From positions 1 to 38,796 of the forward strand of contig JAFULM010000019.1 of NCBI GenBank assembly GCA_017483185.1: a stretch of DNA of 38,796 nucleotides, read 5' to 3'. Under the pieces are notes generated by a model that was not told where the DNA came from, did no database searches, and worked only from the letters and a program-made list of their open reading frames with translations. Positions 300 to 38,796 of this stretch are shown in pieces (the stretch's first letter is position 1; each line of letters starts with the position of its first letter). This DNA is from Prevotella sp. (lineage in GTDB: Bacteria; Bacteroidota; Bacteroidia; Bacteroidales; Bacteroidaceae). A program made the position numbers and the translations under genes.

Positions 300-480
300 C
301 TCTCAATCACATCCTTGTCAAATTAATTCTGAATTTAACGCCGTTTTTTAGGGGTACTTTCAAAAAAATCTCCGCCTCGCTCCCAAATTTTCAAATCTCG
401 CGAAGGTCAAAATCGGGTCATTTTTTTCGGCGAAAAAACCGCTGTTTTTGCAAGTTGTTGTCACATAGATACTTACAAAC

Positions 481-780
481 AAGCAGCCCCCTCTGACTCC
501 CCCAAAGGGGGAGCTTGGGCTTCCCGTAAGGACCCCGCGGGGTTACAATAAGGGCCTTACGGCATCGCAACGGGGCCGCCGTTGCGTTCTGACGGGGCCG
601 CCGTTGCAACACCGCGGGGCCGTTGTTGCGATGCAATAGCGGCCCCATTGGTCGCCCAAACCCGCTTTTTGAGCCTCTTTTCGCTAAGCAAAACTCGCGA
701 ACTTTTGTGTTTTTGAAAAGCCGTAAGAGCCTCTCGGTAGCCCAGGCTCCCCCTTTGGGGGAGTTAGAGGGGGCTTTTTA
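481..780. repeat. Composite element with C-rich inverted ends
   Basis: The ends, about 481-522 and 739-780, are inverted copies of one C-rich/G-rich palindrome (core CTCCCCCAAAGGGGGAG). They differ by only a few bases and enclose copy A of the 22-bp-module repeat. The arrangement resembles a small non-autonomous mobile element or nested insertions. No transposase is present. Confidence 0.6.
514..660 (+). repeat. 22-bp palindromic-module repeat, copy A
   Basis: After a CCGTAAGG start, modules beginning at 568, 590 and 612 are spaced exactly 22 bp; the next is offset by 3 bp. Each module is a small imperfect palindrome around GGGGCCG. Two further copies are at 23091-23200 (B) and 31505-31617 (C), in the same orientation. 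Upstream, near 375-410, lies a word similar to flanks of the other copies (CTCGCTCCCAAAT). Confidence 0.75.
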
Positions 781-862
781 GGTCCTTTTCGGCCCTTATT
801 GCTCACGAAAACGCAAATCTTCAAGCATTTTCCCGAACACGATTTTGTAAAGATTTATCACA
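769..862. repeat. 94-bp repeat, inverted copy at right window end
   Basis: This stretch, starting GGGGGCTTTTTAGGTCC, recurs with few mismatches as the reverse complement of 38704-38796. It runs through the words TTTTCGGCCCTTATTG and ACGATTTTGTAAAGAT. It contains no open frame of note. The right copy is cut by the window edge, so its full length is unknown. Confidence 0.85.
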
Positions 863-22719: not shown

Positions 22720-23457
22720 TTAATATATACTTTTTTAACACTTTGATTATCTCCAAATATCTGTTTTTGTGATGACAACGACAGTTTTTCATCCATATCT
22801 TAAGCCAACACCGACGCCACAGACTCATCATGACGCCCTCCCTGCGGATATCAAAGCAGAGCCACGACCCTATTCCGAAGCAAATGGAGAGTCAGAAAAT
22901 AGAGGACAAAAAGTGTTAAAAACAGGCTCTAAACGCCTTCATTTTGCCATTCTTTTCCAAGAAACCGCCGTCGGTCGCAAATATCGCAAAATAACGTGTG
23001 CAACTACAACAGACTGACAGAAAGGCCGTTGTCATACAAAGATCGCAATTTGTGCAACTTTTTGAAGCCCAAAACGCCGCTTTTTCGCTGCCGTAAGGGC
23101 CCCGTTGGTCCACAACGGCATGCTCGTTGGACTGCAACGGAGGCCTCGCCACGATCCAACGGGGCCCTCGTTGCAACCCAACGGCAGCCCCCTTGGTTTT
23201 CCGCGGCAAAACAATCGCATGACAAACACGATTTTTCGGCTTTTCGAGGTCACAAAACTTACTTTTTCGTTTGTCCTGATTTTTTTAGCAACAATGTTTA
23301 CAAGATTGCCCACGACCGACAAGAAGAGACGAATTGTTCTCGTCAGGGGAGCATCATGCGATATCACTCCAAATGTCACGACAAACCAATCCGCAATCGT
23401 TTTTTTGCCCAACAAGAACAGAACTTCCATAATCATTAGGTTCCGACAACAAAAGAA
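22720..23457. other. Gene-free spacer with repeat element B
   Basis: No open frame here resembles a protein; the longer frames run through the 22-bp-module repeat. About 22927-22990 (AAACGCCTTCATTTT onwards) resembles 31347-31411, so the repeated unit extends well upstream of the modules. The right part, about 23230-23440, is AT-rich with no feature I can name. Confidence 0.5.
23091..23200 (+). repeat. 22-bp palindromic-module repeat, copy B
   Basis: CAACGG occurs at 23113, 23135, 23157 and 23179, exactly every 22 bp. Each module is CAACG, a variable core, then CGTTG or a decayed form, with a short spacer. Cores include the perfect hexamer palindromes GCATGC, AGGCCT and GGGCCC. The left end CCGTAAGGGCCCCG matches copy C; the right end lacks the inverted partner. 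Confidence 0.8.
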
Positions 23458-28799: not shown

Positions 28800-31187
28800 T
28801 CATTTGACCATCCCGTCCGAAGGATACATCCACCAGTTGACGGCTTTCGAGCGTGATATGGCCCACTCACAAAACGACTGTCCGGGCATGCGATAGGCAC
28901 CGCTGAAGACTCCGCCGCGGTTTGAACCGATTATCACTCCCTCCAGAGGCCAGCGTGTCGGCGACGGAACCTGCAGCGCCCAGATGTAGCTGTCGGCGTA
29001 GTTTGCCGGATCCTTGATATACTGATAGATGACCTGGTCCAACTTGTATGGATATGTGTGGACTTCATAGAAGATACCGTTGGTGCTCTCGATGACAAAG
29101 ACATCGAGATTGTCGGCGACGAAACGGGCGGCGGCTTCAGGCGTTGCGAGCGTGAGATGATAGGTGACTGTGACGGGCGGCACGTCGTCGCAGTCGGGCC
29201 GGCTGTCCGGAGACGACTTGTCGACCGTGTTGTAGAGCCAACGGCGTATGTTTCCGTTGGACTCCATCACGTGCGACATGGCCCAGTGGGAGTCACTGAA
29301 GAGATTGATGACGAGGTCTCCGGTCAACTTCTTGTCGTCCGGAAGCAGCATCTCGCGTGAGTCGATGATCATGTAGGAGGACATGGGTTTGCCGTTGTTG
29401 AAGTCAAAGTCTCCGTCCATAGATGCCGCCGTCACCTCGGCACGGCTCACTCCGCACACCCTGATGGCTGCGGCAAGCTGCTTTGGTGTCCCGATAGCGT
29501 CGAGCGTGACGCTCAGTGTGACTTCGCGGCCGTCGACGCGGGGTGCGACGGTGAGCACGAGGTCATTGAAGTCGTAGTCGCCTTCCTGTGGGAAATTGTC
29601 TTCAAAGAGATATCTTATGCCGTAGGGCGTCATGTCGAGCGGGCTGTCGGCGCGGCTGCTGAAGCCCGTCGAGCAGTCTCCAGCCTCGACGGTACAGACG
29701 GGCGAAGCCGACGTGACAACATTGGTCTCGGCGGCGCTCCAGAAGAGATTGGTCCCGGTGGCGTTGCCGTTATACATATTATATAAGCCGCTGCCCGTGT
29801 CCGTGCCCTGCGGATAGACGAGATTGACGTTGTTGACGATGTACTCGCTTCTCACGGACGGGTCGAATGTCATCGAGCCGACCGCCGCCATGTCCACCAC
29901 GGCATATCCGCCGGCTGTCGGTCCGACGATGCCGAAGTGCTGTATGTTCATCCGTCCGCTGCTCCGGAGACAGGCGTCGGCCCCCATGCGGAGCGTCTGC
30001 CCGCCGCCTCTCTTCCCCATCAGGGTCAGCGTACGGCTCTCCAGAGAGGCTCCGCGTCCGATGCGCGAGTCTCCACCGAGCATGAGCGTCTGGCTGACGC
30101 TGACACGGCATGCGTTTTCCAAGGCGAACAGACAGCGTGCGGTCGAGGATGACGTGGGCGGCATGCCTGCCCGTACGGCCTCCACCCGACCGTGGTTGAC
30201 GAGGCGTCCGCCGACGGCCGTCGACGTGATGTCATCGACGGCAAGTGTCGAGGCGTCTGCGTCATACAGCGTGCTGCCGTCGAGCGTCACCGTCCGGACC
30301 TCGATGCGGCCGCCGTTGTAGATCGCCGGCCACTCCGTTCCGCCGCTGCATCCGTCAGCTCCCGCGGCCATTGCGCCGCCCTCTATCGTCGCTCCGGGCA
30401 TGACGATGATCCGTCCCGACGGCATGTCCGGCGTGCGCGCTGCCGTCGAGAGCGTCACTCCCGCGGGTATGACGATGCGTCCACCTGAAGTCACGACCAC
30501 CGTGGCACCGGCTCCGACGGTCTGGTCGCCATCCAGTGTCCACGTTCCGCTGACATGAAGCGAGGCGCCGGGGATATTTTCCAGAGCGTCGACATGGGCT
30601 GTCACGTTGCCTCTCACGGCCAGACGCTTGCCGGCCGAGCCGTCGGTCGGACCGCCGGAGACAATTTCTGTCGTGCCCGTCGTCATGGCCGAGATGTCCG
30701 GACGAGAGAAGACCGTCACCTCGCTGCCGTCCGACGAGGGTCCCGGGCCGCTGCCGTCCTTGTCGAAACGACATTCGAGAGACGATCCGGCAAAGCGGGC
30801 CGTCTTCACCGTGCGATGACCCTGCGGATCGGTGAGGGCGACATAGGCCGTCGCCGGCGTGCTCATCGGACAGGACAGCGGTGTCGTCAGCACGCCGCCG
30901 TTGGTCACCGTCCCTCCGCCCAGCACGACCACGCCGGATGCCGACATAGGGTCGTTGGTGCAGATGTCGACGCGATAGTCGCCGGAAAGATACCAGTCGA
31001 CCGAGATCCGCGCCGTGATGGTGCGCATGGTCCGCCACTGGTGTTGCGGGTCGACGCCGGTGACGGGAAAGGCGTCGCTGATTATCTCATCGTAGGCGTT
31101 CTGGTCAAAGAGGTTTTTTTCTTTGCATGACGCAATGGCGACAGCTATCAGAGCCGCGCCCAAGACTGTTTTGGTGTGTCTGAACAT
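28800..31187 (-). CDS. LruC/DUF4842-domain lipoprotein
   Basis: The protein has 795 residues. The signal peptide ends in lipobox AIASC (Cys21). Residues of about 50-140 form a beta-rich domain. Residues 150-500 are rich in Gly, Thr and Val, with repeated short strands (for example IVIPAGVTLSTAA, IIVMPGATIEGGA) that suggest a beta-helix. The C-terminal 270 residues match LruC/DUF4842 proteins: YLFEDNFPQEGDYDFNDLVL (526-545) with its Asp-rich calcium-loop look, and an end with FCEWAISRSKAVNWW. The family is surface-exposed in Leptospira and Bacteroidetes, with an unsettled role. The gene is GC-rich compared with the LRR gene at the left. It lies upstream of the sigma operon on the same strand, 150 bp away. 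Confidence 0.8.
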   Translation of the reverse strand: MFRHTKTVLGAALIAVAIASCKEKNLFDQNAYDEIISDAFPVTGVDPQHQWRTMRTITARISVDWYLSGDYRVDICTNDPMSASGVVVLGGGTVTNGGVLTTPLSCPMSTPATAYVALTDPQGHRTVKTARFAGSSLECRFDKDGSGPGPSSDGSEVTVFSRPDISAMTTGTTEIVSGGPTDGSAGKRLAVRGNVTAHVDALENIPGASLHVSGTWTLDGDQTVGAGATVVVTSGGRIVIPAGVTLSTAARTPDMPSGRIIVMPGATIEGGAMAAGADGCSGGTEWPAIYNGGRIEVRTVTLDGSTLYDADASTLAVDDITSTAVGGRLVNHGRVEAVRAGMPPTSSSTARCLFALENACRVSVSQTLMLGGDSRIGRGASLESRTLTLMGKRGGGQTLRMGADACLRSSGRMNIQHFGIVGPTAGGYAVVDMAAVGSMTFDPSVRSEYIVNNVNLVYPQGTDTGSGLYNMYNGNATGTNLFWSAAETNVVTSASPVCTVEAGDCSTGFSSRADSPLDMTPYGIRYLFEDNFPQEGDYDFNDLVLTVAPRVDGREVTLSVTLDAIGTPKQLAAAIRVCGVSRAEVTAASMDGDFDFNNGKPMSSYMIIDSREMLLPDDKKLTGDLVINLFSDSHWAMSHVMESNGNIRRWLYNTVDKSSPDSRPDCDDVPPVTVTYHLTLATPEAAARFVADNLDVFVIESTNGIFYEVHTYPYKLDQVIYQYIKDPANYADSYIWALQVPSPTRWPLEGVIIGSNRGGVFSGAYRMPGQSFCEWAISRSKAVNWWMYPSDGMVK

Positions 31188-31204
31188 GGTCTTCTTTTTT
31201 TGCG

Positions 31205-31258
31205 ACGGCGGTGTGAAAGTCCTTGAGTCACACCGTCATTGTGTACTCTGCAAAAGTA
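31205..31258 (-). promoter_or_regulatory. -7 box and leader hairpin of the LruC gene
   Basis: On the minus strand TACTTTTG (31251-31258) fits TAnnTTTG, though no good -33 TTTG is seen. Between it and the ATG, GGTGTGA and TCACACC (31210-31234) can form a leader stem. Confidence 0.45.
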
Positions 31259-31504
31259 ATAAAAAAGTTTGAAAGTCTTTTGCCGGAAGAAACTAAATTA
31301 TCAAAAAGGCGCCGAAGCTGGCTGAAGACGAACTGTTAAATTCGGAATATTTCTTACAAACGCCTTCCATTTTAACACGGATTTTCCACCAAGTCCTCCC
31401 TCGGTCCCAAATATGCGAGTTTTGCGCGTGCATCTTTTTCTCACTGGCAGTCAGCGTGTTACGACAAAAATCACGAAAGTGTGCAACATTTTCGCCGATT
31501 TTTC

Positions 31505-31617
31505 CGAGCCGTAAGGGCCCCGCGGCATCGCAACGGGGCCCTCGTTGCAATGCGACGGCACGCTCGTTGCAAGACAACGGCGTGCTTATTGCAGACCAAC
31601 GGGGCCCTTACGGCTCG
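31505..31617 (+). repeat. 22-bp palindromic-module repeat, copy C with terminal inverted repeats
   Basis: The 18-bp ends CGAGCCGTAAGGGCCCCG (31505-31522) and 31600-31617 are perfect inverted repeats. Inside, modules start at 31531, 31553, 31575 and 31597, exactly every 22 bp, each with a CAACG or CGACG start and a CGTTG or TATTG close. Cores are GGGCCC, GCACGC and GCGTGC. It is the best-preserved copy in the window. Confidence 0.88.
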
Positions 31618-31869
31618 ACGACCGCCAAAATTTTGAACGACGAAAGCAACTTTTCGGTCGGATTACAACGTTTTTATACAAAATTTCGCGCGTTGCGAAA
31701 TGTTAATTTTAACAATCTTTTTCTGACAAACGGGAATACATCAAGATACGGTCCTTGCACACGGCCGGCTCCATTGGCATTTTCCGCAACTCGACACCGC
31801 CATACGAAACAAAATCATTAAAAAAGTAGAAAATTTGCTATATATATAATGTGGTGGCAAAATTTTGCT

Positions 31870-31877
31870 TACTTTTG
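31870..31877 (+). promoter_or_regulatory. Likely -7 box of topA
   Basis: TACTTTTG, 27 bases before the topA ATG, fits TAnnTTTG. A TTTG at 31834-31837 is too far (32 bases) for the usual spacing. Confidence 0.5.
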
Positions 31878-31904
31878 CAACCCGAATACGTAAAAATTTC
31901 GATT

Positions 31905-34361
31905 ATGCAGAAGAATTTAGTGATAGTCGAGTCTCCTGCCAAGGCCAAAACGATTGAGAAGTTTTTGGGCGAAGACTTTAAAGTGATGTCCAGCTACGGT
32001 CACATCCGCGACCTCAAAAAGAAAGAGCTGAGTGTCGACATGGACACCCTGACGCCCGACTACGAGATACCCGAAGAGAAGGAAAAACTCGTGCGCGAGC
32101 TCAAAGCCAACGCAAAAAAGGCAGAGAAGGTCTGGCTCGCATCCGATGAGGACCGTGAGGGAGAAGCCATCTCGTGGCACCTCTGCGAAGTGCTCGGACT
32201 GGATGAAGCCAAGACAAACCGCATCGTCTTCCACGAAATCACCAAGCCGGCCATCCTCGAGGCCATCAAGAACCCGCGGCGGCTGGACATGAACCTCGTC
32301 AACGCGCAGCAGGCACGCCGCGTGCTGGACCGCATCGTGGGCTTCAAACTCTCACCCGTGCTCTGGCGCAAGGTCAAGCCGGCCCTGTCGGCAGGTCGCG
32401 TGCAGAGCGTGGCCGTGCGTCTCATAGTGGAACGCGAGCGCGAGATAAAGGAGTTCCGCAGCGAGACCTACTATCGCGTGGGCGGTGTCTTCGCCCTGAC
32501 CAACCCCGACGGCTCAGCCACCGAGGTCAAGGCCGAACTGTCCACACGCTTCAAGACCGAAGAGGAGGTGACGGATTTCCTCGAAAAGTGCAAGGACGCC
32601 ACCTTCGTCATCGACTCCATAACCAAGAAACCGCTCCGACGCACACCCGCGCCGCCATTCACCACGTCCACGCTCCAGCAGGAGGCCGCCCGCAAACTGG
32701 GCTTCACCGTGAGCCAGACCATGATGGTCGCACAGCATCTCTACGAGAGCGGACGCATCACATACATGCGTACGGACTCGGTCAACCTCTCCTCGCTCTG
32801 TCTCGCCGCATCCAAAGAAGAGATCATCGGCACATGGGGTGAGAAGTACAGCCGCCCAAGGCAGTATCAGACACACTCCAAAGGAGCACAGGAGGCACAC
32901 GAAGCCATCCGCCCGACATACATGAACGTCACGGCCATCGAAGGCACGGCACAGGAGAAGCGTCTCTACGACCTCATCTGGAAACGCACCGCTGCCAGCC
33001 AGATGGCGGACGCCGAGATAGAGAAGACGACGGTCGTCATCGGGATAACGCCCCCCTCGGTCCCCACAGGAGGAGATGAAGGGGTGACATCTTCTTCAAG
33101 TCTGTCTCCGTCAAAGGCAGCGTCATCATCAACGGATGGCTCTGATGCGAATAGCGTTTCAGCCGCTTCATCCCCCCTTGGGGGGACTGAGGGAGGCCGT
33201 ACTTTCATTGCCACCGGCGAAGTGGTCACATTCGACGGCTTCCTCAAGGTCTACCGCGAGTCCGACGGAGACGACGACCAGACGGCAGACGACGAGTCGA
33301 CATGTCTCCTGCCACCCATGCAGAAGGGACAACAGCTCACACGCCGCGAAATCATTGCCACCGAACGGTACAGTCAGGGGCCGTCGAGATATACCGAAGC
33401 CAGCCTCGTCCACAAACTCGAGGAGTTGGGCATCGGCCGTCCGTCGACCTACGCACCGACCATCAGCACCATACAGCAGCGCGACTACGTCCACAAGGGT
33501 GACCGCAAGGGCGAGGAACGCACATACACCGTCGACACTCTCAAGGGCAAAGTCATCACCCGAAAGACACGTCACGAAATGGCCGGCAGCGACAAGGGCA
33601 AGCTGCTGCCCACGGACATCGGCATCGTGGTCAACGACTTCCTCATGAAATATTTCCCCGGCATCATGGACTACAACTTCACGGCAAAGGTAGAACACCG
33701 CTTCGACGACATCGCCGAGGGCGGAGAGAAGTGGACCGACATGATGAAGGACTTCTACCGCGATTTCGAACCGACTGTCGAGAAGACACTCAACACCCGT
33801 TCGGAACACAAGGCGGGCGAACGACTGCTTGGCAAAGAACCGGACGGAGGACGCCCCGTGTTCGTCAAGATCGGCCGCTACGGACCCGTCGTACAGATCG
33901 GAGCGGCCGACGAAAGCGAAAAGCCGCGCTTCGCCCAACTGCCTTCGGACAAGAGCATGGAGTCCATCACGCTCGACGAGGCACTCGAACTGTTCAGTCT
34001 GCCACGCGAAGTCGGCGAATATGAAGGCTCAAAAGTCGTCATCGGAGCAGGCCGTTTCGGACCATACGTGCTCCACAATCGCAAGTATGTCTCACTCCCC
34101 AAGGGCGAAGACCCCATGACCGTGACCCTCGAGACGGCCATCGACCTCATCGAGAAGAAACGTCAGCAGGAGGACCAGCGACACATCAAGACGTTCGAAG
34201 AGGAACCGGCAATGGAAGTGCTCAACGGACGATACGGTCCGTACATCGCTTACAACGGCAAGAACTACCGTCTGCCGAAGGCCTTGCACGAACGTGCGGC
34301 CGAACTGTCGCTCGAGGAGTGCATGGAAATCGTCAAGGCGGCACCGGCCAAGAAGAAGTAA
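31905..34361 (+). CDS. topA: DNA topoisomerase I
   Basis: The ATG at 31905 (MQKNLVIVESPAKAKTIEKF) gives 818 residues; the open frame reaches 18 codons further back with no similarity. The Toprim domain has Glu9 and the acidic triad DEDRE at 81-85. The catalytic Tyr is Tyr287 in GRITYMRTDS. In place of zinc fingers the C-terminus has GRYGPYI-type repeats (FVKIGRYGPVV, GRFGPYV, LNGRYGPYIAY), as usual in this phylum. It relaxes negative supercoils. About 50 residues at 382-432, low complexity and Ser/Ala/Asp-rich, lie between the strand TTVVIG and FIATGEVVTFDGF. The DNA there is bounded by inverted repeats of an intergenic palindrome family, so it looks like an in-frame insertion. aroK follows after 38 bp. 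Confidence 0.95.
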   Translation: MQKNLVIVESPAKAKTIEKFLGEDFKVMSSYGHIRDLKKKELSVDMDTLTPDYEIPEEKEKLVRELKANAKKAEKVWLASDEDREGEAISWHLCEVLGLDEAKTNRIVFHEITKPAILEAIKNPRRLDMNLVNAQQARRVLDRIVGFKLSPVLWRKVKPALSAGRVQSVAVRLIVEREREIKEFRSETYYRVGGVFALTNPDGSATEVKAELSTRFKTEEEVTDFLEKCKDATFVIDSITKKPLRRTPAPPFTTSTLQQEAARKLGFTVSQTMMVAQHLYESGRITYMRTDSVNLSSLCLAASKEEIIGTWGEKYSRPRQYQTHSKGAQEAHEAIRPTYMNVTAIEGTAQEKRLYDLIWKRTAASQMADAEIEKTTVVIGITPPSVPTGGDEGVTSSSSLSPSKAASSSTDGSDANSVSAASSPLGGTEGGRTFIATGEVVTFDGFLKVYRESDGDDDQTADDESTCLLPPMQKGQQLTRREIIATERYSQGPSRYTEASLVHKLEELGIGRPSTYAPTISTIQQRDYVHKGDRKGEERTYTVDTLKGKVITRKTRHEMAGSDKGKLLPTDIGIVVNDFLMKYFPGIMDYNFTAKVEHRFDDIAEGGEKWTDMMKDFYRDFEPTVEKTLNTRSEHKAGERLLGKEPDGGRPVFVKIGRYGPVVQIGAADESEKPRFAQLPSDKSMESITLDEALELFSLPREVGEYEGSKVVIGAGRFGPYVLHNRKYVSLPKGEDPMTVTLETAIDLIEKKRQQEDQRHIKTFEEEPAMEVLNGRYGPYIAYNGKNYRLPKALHERAAELSLEECMEIVKAAPAKKK
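33051..33196. repeat. Palindrome-family insertion inside topA
   Basis: Arms 33051-33081 and 33166-33196 match as inverted repeats at about 25 of 31 positions. The right arm core TCCCCCCTTGGGGGGA closely resembles the intergenic palindromes at 481-522 and 744-775. The reading frame stays open across it. Confidence 0.6.
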
Positions 34362-38276: not shown

Positions 38277-38532
38277 CCGTCGCGACCGACTCCTTGTCAC
38301 CATAACCACCCGCATATTTCAACGCAAAGACGCAAAGCCACAAAGAGGGCGCCGCCGCGCATACGGAAGCACGCAAAGGCATGACCGACGGCATGCGCTA
38401 CGCCATTCATCCACCGTCGCGACCGACTCCTTGTCACCATAACCCCACATATTTCAACGCAAAGACGCAAAGCCACAAAGAGGGTGCCGCCGCGCATACG
38501 GAAGCACGCAAAGGCATGACCGACGTCATGCG
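38277..38532 (+). repeat. Two tandem about 120-bp repeats
   Basis: Copies 38277-38397 and 38414-38532 both run CCGTCGCGACCGACTCC, then CAACGCAAAGACGCAAAGCC, then GCCGCCGCGCATACGG, ending CATGCG. They differ at a handful of positions. No gene is supported in 38191-38796; apparent frames are repeat-derived. Confidence 0.85.
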
Positions 38533-38572
38533 ACAACACTTGCACGTATGTCGCAACACACCGAACGGCGTA

Positions 38573-38654
38573 GCGCATGACGTCAGTCATGCCTTTGCGT
38601 GCTTCCGTATGCGCGGCGGCGCCCTCTTTGTGGCTTTGCGTCTTTGCGTTGAAA
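38573..38654 (-). repeat. Inverted copy of the CGCAAAG repeat
   Basis: This is the reverse complement of the main part of the tandem copies just to its left, so the three could fold on each other. It is nearly identical to 215-297 at the other end of the window. Confidence 0.85.
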
Positions 38655-38703
38655 AAGCATCCTTCTTCCCCACGAGGCAAGGAAGCGGTCACCATACAAT
38701 GGG

Positions 38704-38796
38704 ATGATATATCTTTACAAAATCGTGTTTGGGAAAATGCTCAAAGATTTGCGTTTTCGGGGGCAATAAGGGCCGAAAAGGACCTAAAAAGCCCCC
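38704..38796. repeat. Right-end copy of the 769-862 repeat, truncated
   Basis: Its reverse complement matches 769-862 with few differences, from GGGGGCTTTTTAGG to TTTTGTAAAGAT. It is cut by the window edge. Confidence 0.85.

Follow-up and report, generated by a model that had tools for sequence, protein, structure and literature searches.

What is the short array of palindromic modules that lies between two divergently oriented genes on a contig of Prevotella sp. (GenBank assembly GCA_017483185.1, contig JAFULM010000019.1, whose 38,796 nucleotides, all of them analysed here, are referred to as the window)? A sequence-only reading of this DNA had left three options, namely a structured RNA, a protein-binding array or a non-autonomous mobile element, and the last of these is the best supported by our results. 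The array probably forms the core of non-autonomous DNA elements of mobile type that belong to an old family, constitute length-constrained scaffolds with a layout similar to that of BrickBuilt and occur in a few related Prevotella species. A protein-binding array is retained as a candidate reading.

The perfect 18-bp inverted repeats that had been reported as the boundaries of the array are indeed present: positions 31505-31522 are the exact reverse complement of positions 31600-31617, and the match extends in neither direction. The array comprises five 17-bp units arranged with a 22-bp period (starts at 31509, 31531, 31553, 31575 and 31597); the spacing is thus as exact as the sequence-only reading had stated, with five module starts instead of the four it listed. 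Its description of these modules as exact palindromes with a fixed word order (CAACG, core, CGTTG) has to be abandoned. The units at 31553 (CGACG..CGTTG) and 31575 (CAACG..TATTG) are imperfect palindromes, and the order is broken in both of them, as well as in the unit at 31597, which terminates in TTACGG instead of CGTTG. A CRISPR array (near-identical repeats and unique spacers) was correctly dismissed, since it is ruled out by linkers of 5 nt and by units that differ from one another. The module-pair pattern CAACG-N7-CGTTGCA-N2-ACAACG is present in the window far above chance, with seven matches at up to three mismatches, as compared with a mean of 0.02 and a maximum of 1 in 100 dinucleotide shuffles. 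The position of the array between divergent genes, encoding a DUF4842 domain protein (minus strand) and DNA topoisomerase I (plus strand), was also confirmed, and no Pfam match at E<=0.001 was obtained for the two ORFs crossing the array.

The 113-bp unit was previously regarded as the entire element. Homology between copies reaches approximately 170 bp further to the left and 110 bp further to the right, revealing a larger structure (designated type 1) composed of a left arm, five array units and a right arm (Table 1). A BLAST search with window positions 31188-31910 against 60 loci of the window's genome and five other loci identified five copies, 85-88.5% identical, spanning approximately 31330 to 31730, and about fifteen further copies, 71-80% identical across most of 31330-31634. 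The ends of the element are sharp in the alignments (TGTTAAA at 31334 and TGACA at 31728), the DNA outside being unrelated, and fourteen copies from two other genomes (G080 and G081) exhibit the same layout with even cleaner ends. The distance from TGTT to the right end, measured in 50 rows with a pattern that misses most copies whose right arm is of the window's subtype (the copy in the window has 395 bp), was 396-398 bp in 38 rows, 383-384 bp in 6, 406-407 bp in 4, 395 bp in 1 and 419 bp in 1, the last of these being a misplaced match.

Table 1. Features of the window that are discussed in the text.
Feature	Position	Strand	Basis and remarks
Whole type-1 element, TGTTAAA ... TGACA, 395 bp	31334..31728	+	Homology boundaries in copy alignments; AAC precedes at 31331-31333
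Left arm, conserved stretch CAAATATGCGAGTTTTGCGCGTGCATCTTT	31334..31508	+	Alignments of copies
Central array	31505..31617	+	Perfect 18-bp inverted repeats as bounds; gap-free alignment of 57 type-1 arrays
Right arm, window's subtype, ends in TTAACAATCTTTTTCTGACA	31618..31728	+	Alignments of copies
Second element, type B (different arms), array ~23090-23195	22890..23303	+	Ends approximate
Third element, type-2 arms, CCCCCAAAGGGGGAG palindromes, array ~523-650	314..850	+	Ends approximate
DUF4842 domain protein, flanking gene	28800..31187	-	
DNA topoisomerase I (topA), flanking gene	31905..34361	+	

No terminal inverted repeats were found: by eye, TGTTAAA... and ...TGACA share only a few inverted letters (TGT/ACA) and resemble a direct echo more than inverted repeats. 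Target-site duplications were likewise not detected in 57 rows (one misplaced), with words of 3-9 bases at offsets within about 20 bases of either end (highest z against shuffled pairs, 1.8). Elements of the IS200/IS605 (HUH) type insert beside a fixed short target without duplicating it; the type-1 element is preceded by A at position -3 in 48 of 50 rows and at position -2 in 49 of 50, and no duplication was seen. As a separate observation, the 24-bp segment between GTGTGC and the array is seemingly inverted in some type-1 copies of G080 and G081, where 10 of 351 pairs matched better in reverse complement (none in letter shuffles); in the window's genome the same was true of none of 276 pairs. 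Some array units were also found in both orientations.

One array occurs inside several different element types, two further examples of which reside in the window itself (Table 1). The window's genome (G000) contains at least 96 array loci, clustered from the matches listed in two pattern searches, and 62 of these, including two within the window, were inspected. A script formed 64 array clusters in this genome and kept 62, whose arms, according to BLAST, are of type 1 in 32, of type 2 in 7 and of neither type in 23. The last group includes one sequence found at two contig positions (L154 and L156, 99.9% identical over 906 bp), and many of its members form further families, whose common stretches of 279-543 bp enclose the array. 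G207 (probably Prevotella sp. RGIG8660) carries a family of similar kind, in which the array has the same period but four units, 83 bp and other letters, and Xylanibacter rodentium contains arrays of 22-bp period, again with other letters.

The closest named records of the neighbouring topoisomerase originate from uncultured Prevotella (L032, 90% identical, in G080; L033, 88% identical, in G081). When the whole element was used as a query, with at most the best 40 candidates per genome scored and with pieces and both strands counted, so that not all matches are separate copies, at least 59 matches were obtained in G000, at least 44 in G080, at least 45 in G081, at least 10 weak ones in X. rodentium (L034) and at least one in another genome; among the candidates scored, none were found in 8 of the 13 genomes. 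A strict module pattern, applied with one mismatch to 80 genomes, gave 138 and 124 matches in G000, while 23 of the 79 other genomes contained few, equal to the reversed control with the exception of G034, whose nine matches belong to a different repeat. A covariance model of the array, run with stricter filters and with the best candidates (up to 13) scored per genome, matched in 20 of 299 genomes of the genus, six of them (including G000) at least nine times each; the 20 include G172 and G342, whose match places coincide with those of G081 and G080, respectively, each pair probably representing one genome. In IMG/VR, no stretch contained the exact left-end pattern or the exact array pattern (0 each), and a plasmid collection gave no more than two short matches, one each from Rhizobium and Rhodococcus. 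It had been proposed that the unit would be a local accident if close genomes lacked further copies or the 22-bp spacing were not conserved; further copies were found and the spacing is conserved, which argues against an accident.

The central array does not expand freely in the manner of a minisatellite, as five units were present in the type-1 copies examined. A pattern combining the left end with a recognisable first unit retrieved 58 type-1 arrays, from which one false match was removed. The remaining 57 aligned without gaps over 105 columns in a single five-unit register with a mean identity of 67%; since the arrays were cut at a fixed length, this alignment demonstrates the register of five units, not free length. 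Identities between nearest neighbours range from 63 to 96% (pairwise mean 67%), and therefore no very recent copies are present among those sampled. In a comparison of nine loci between G080 and G081 (eight located inside shared aligned blocks and one only flanked by such blocks), the element accumulated 534 substitutions and 4 gap openings, as against 687 substitutions and 45 gap openings in the flanks (200 bp on each side). This corresponds to approximately nine-fold fewer indels per substitution within the element (Fisher p=1.5e-7), a contrast that slippage-prone flanks could inflate, as the flanks were unmatched for base composition. When two pairs with poorly alignable flanks were left out, the respective values were 3 per 322 and 31 per 404 (p=2e-5). 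For six pairs analysed earlier, identity was 0.864 in the arms, 0.864 in the array and 0.889 in the flanks, i.e. arms and array diverged alike. Length has thus remained nearly fixed while the sequence drifted, which suggests that the physical DNA scaffold matters more than its letters.

Hairpins formed locally, within units or across linkers, were rejected, as their covariation was not above that of shuffles: two-sided changes in the 57 arrays were fewer than in shuffled sets both for unit hairpins (21 vs 73.2) and for linker hairpins (19 vs 31.7). A hairpin folded over the whole array gave 160 two-sided changes vs 98.5 in shuffles (0/500), 75.8 vs 73.7% paired cells and a covariation score of 0.221 vs 0.189, with two of five measures not above shuffles (29 pairs vs 26.7, 93/500; 80 pair types vs 78.0, 154/500); kinship of the sequences alone can lift such values above shuffles. 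With shuffles restricted to genome groups, whole-array pairing amounted to 1854 vs 1801.9 (sd 13.6, 0/500, z 3.8) and local unit pairing was lower than expected (1263 vs 1348.9), while slid versions of the whole-array hairpin gave z values from -1.9 to 2.3. The excess peaked in the outer units (z 5.6); the central unit showed none (z -3.1). Swapping of halves between arrays gave z 3.4 (1/2000) for G080/G081 and a non-significant z 0.8 (492/2000) for G000 alone; with 28 arrays bearing other arms z was 3.9 (0/2000), and with 18 of these it was 2.6 (22/2000), a result that is not counted, many of the windows used being misregistered. At eight orthologous array pairs (one misregistered), double changes numbered 7, with 6.9 expected.

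The element is unlikely to be coding. Among 57 copies, no frame is free of stop codons in more than 9 left arms or in more than 18 right arms; for the array taken by itself, three frames lack stops in 43-47 of the 57. Substitutions in the left arm of three orthologous pairs are unevenly distributed by position modulo 3 (37, 24, 18), which tempers this conclusion. Predicted ORFs of at least 120 aa overlap 20 of the 57 copies and are taken to be mostly spurious.

The topA locus is without the element in both close relatives, a comparison that does not amount to a base-level empty site. Among 22 G080 intervals within the fetched stretches, 8 are placed in an aligned block shared with G081, 3 are merely flanked by such blocks and 11 are without synteny on both sides; the corresponding numbers for 16 G081 intervals are 8, 5 and 3. 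Since 8 of the 11 comparable G080 copies reside in blocks common with G081, the family now looks mostly fixed. One locus is common to G000 and G081 (L130, L189). Neither of two candidate empty sites between G080 and G081 provided a clean case: G081 C1:54871-55216 is a decayed copy with no clean junction, and G081 C1:71121 sits in a rearranged stretch. In the 50 left-end loci that were viewed, out of 110 left-end matches in three genomes, the left end is accompanied by an array in 30 of 30 cases in one set (one array degenerate) and in 17 of 20 in the second, the exceptions being L261, L267 and L268 (the last at a contig end). No autonomous partner was seen in a transposase search that covered the Y1_Tnp family in G000.

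We propose that an apparently non-coding element of approximately 396 bp spread in the past through a small group of Prevotella, presumably being moved in trans by a transposase or recombinase. Its likeliest role would be that of a DNA-level scaffold, whose phased dyads may serve as protein-binding sites or be extruded to give one long hairpin. Such a scaffold would be needed for mobility and might still be used at resident copies.

Two other explanations also accept a mobile-type element, and their probabilities consequently overlap with that of our proposal. One of them, which we regard as rather unlikely, is that an element of mobile origin is now kept for the host as a chromosomal protein-binding site with a nucleoid or regulatory function. 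The scarcity of indels at the compared loci, the 22-bp phasing, and the copies held in common by G080 and G081 and at the L130/L189 locus would be expected of such an element; however, the gene context is inconsistent (51 copies classified with a simple ORF rule comprise 20 in divergent, 17 in tandem and 14 in convergent settings), two relatives lack a copy at topA, and the array model matched in just 20 of the 299 genus genomes, among the best candidates scored. It is also doubtful that the family represents a dead, decaying selfish repeat with no present function. Neutral decay predicts an indel rate similar to that of the flanks, in conflict with the nine-fold difference counted, although the sampled copies include no very recent ones, the Y1_Tnp search in G000 revealed no mover, and double changes at orthologous arrays are not in excess.

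REP/BIME sequences are high-copy extragenic palindromes associated with RAYT (Y1) transposases, and the Prevotella element resembles them in being extragenic, palindromic, present in high copy number and devoid of detected target duplications. The single Y1_Tnp (RAYT-like) match of G000 (L031 1501-1785; G000:C41:26098-26382) lies, however, between copies of a different repeat (GGGACAAATTCTTGTATCTGTCCGC with its variants), and no RAYT gene flanked by the element's own repeat was found in this genome, which is 74.72% complete, so that a second Y1_Tnp gene may be missing from the assembly. Moreover, the elements differ in size (about 400 bp) and paired changes do not maintain their local palindromes, which makes mobilisation as a REP/BIME-type repeat very unlikely. 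The least probable reading is a structured regulatory RNA. Intergenic location and palindromes are what such an RNA would show, but RNAalifold returned no consensus fold of note for 51 copies (-3.72 kcal/mol over 415 columns), and no match to the element was obtained in Rfam at E<=1, where the window otherwise yielded tRNAs only. Mispairs in the whole-array hairpin are nearly equally of the G-T (307) and A-C (298) type; together with the lack of a consensus fold this does not indicate single-stranded RNA and points to DNA, and the first option of the sequence-only reading is thereby disfavoured.

Helentrons and DINE-1 are eukaryotic rolling-circle elements with arms, a central short tandem array and no target duplication, features shared by the Prevotella element; the likeness is one of architecture. 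The element is short, non-coding, dispersed and of high copy number, as are MITEs, but terminal inverted repeats and target-site duplications, which also characterise MITEs, were not found. The claim that no family of this form has been described holds for the sequence, as a search of open papers by title and start of abstract gave no description of this repeat, and does not hold for the layout, which is comparable to that of BrickBuilt. According to its published description, BrickBuilt is a MITE of Porphyromonas gingivalis that carries from 1 to 22.8 units and ends in terminal inverted repeats of IS5-like type (PMC4596501). Both elements are intergenic components of Bacteroidales genomes and consist of a leader, a tandem array with units of about two helical turns (23 nt in BrickBuilt) and a tail; target duplications are inconsistent in BrickBuilt (PMC4596501) and none were found in the Prevotella element. 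In contrast to the variable copy number and 23-nt period of BrickBuilt, the 57 type-1 arrays have five units and a period of 22, and IS5-type ends such as GAGACCTTTGCA are not present on the Prevotella element, as judged by eye against Table 2 of that description (PMC4596501). The likeness is one of layout. MITE464/PgRS of P. gingivalis, as presented in the same source (PMC4596501), is also a mobile-type element with internal tandem repeats, but differs in having 41-nt repeats and BrickBuilt-like ends.

The published BrickBuilt and PgRS, together with the 22-bp families described here, hint that Bacteroidales repeatedly build mobile elements on short phased arrays. Should the length constraint prove real, the Prevotella element would represent a ruler-like structure of natural DNA, of which each genome contains dozens of copies, and could serve directly as bait for its binding protein or mover. 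We tentatively raise the possibility, which we consider improbable at present, of a class of bacterial chromosomal elements whose physical length and helical phasing, and not their sequence, are under selection, with rigid dyads every ~11 bp kept intact in place within several pairs of arms.

Further repeats were observed in the window. An inverted repeat family, GTAGGGTCGCGACCCGTCGCGACCGCC, occupies positions 1-140, is also present to the right of several aligned copies and often adjoins the elements. A long inverted repeat around AACCACCCCT and CCTCCTTTCGAAGGAGGGG is located at approximately 1005-1150, and another repeat, found at about 200-300 and at 38297-38707, gives rise to ORFs that include all or part of the peptide NAKTQSHKEGAAAHTEARKGMTD.
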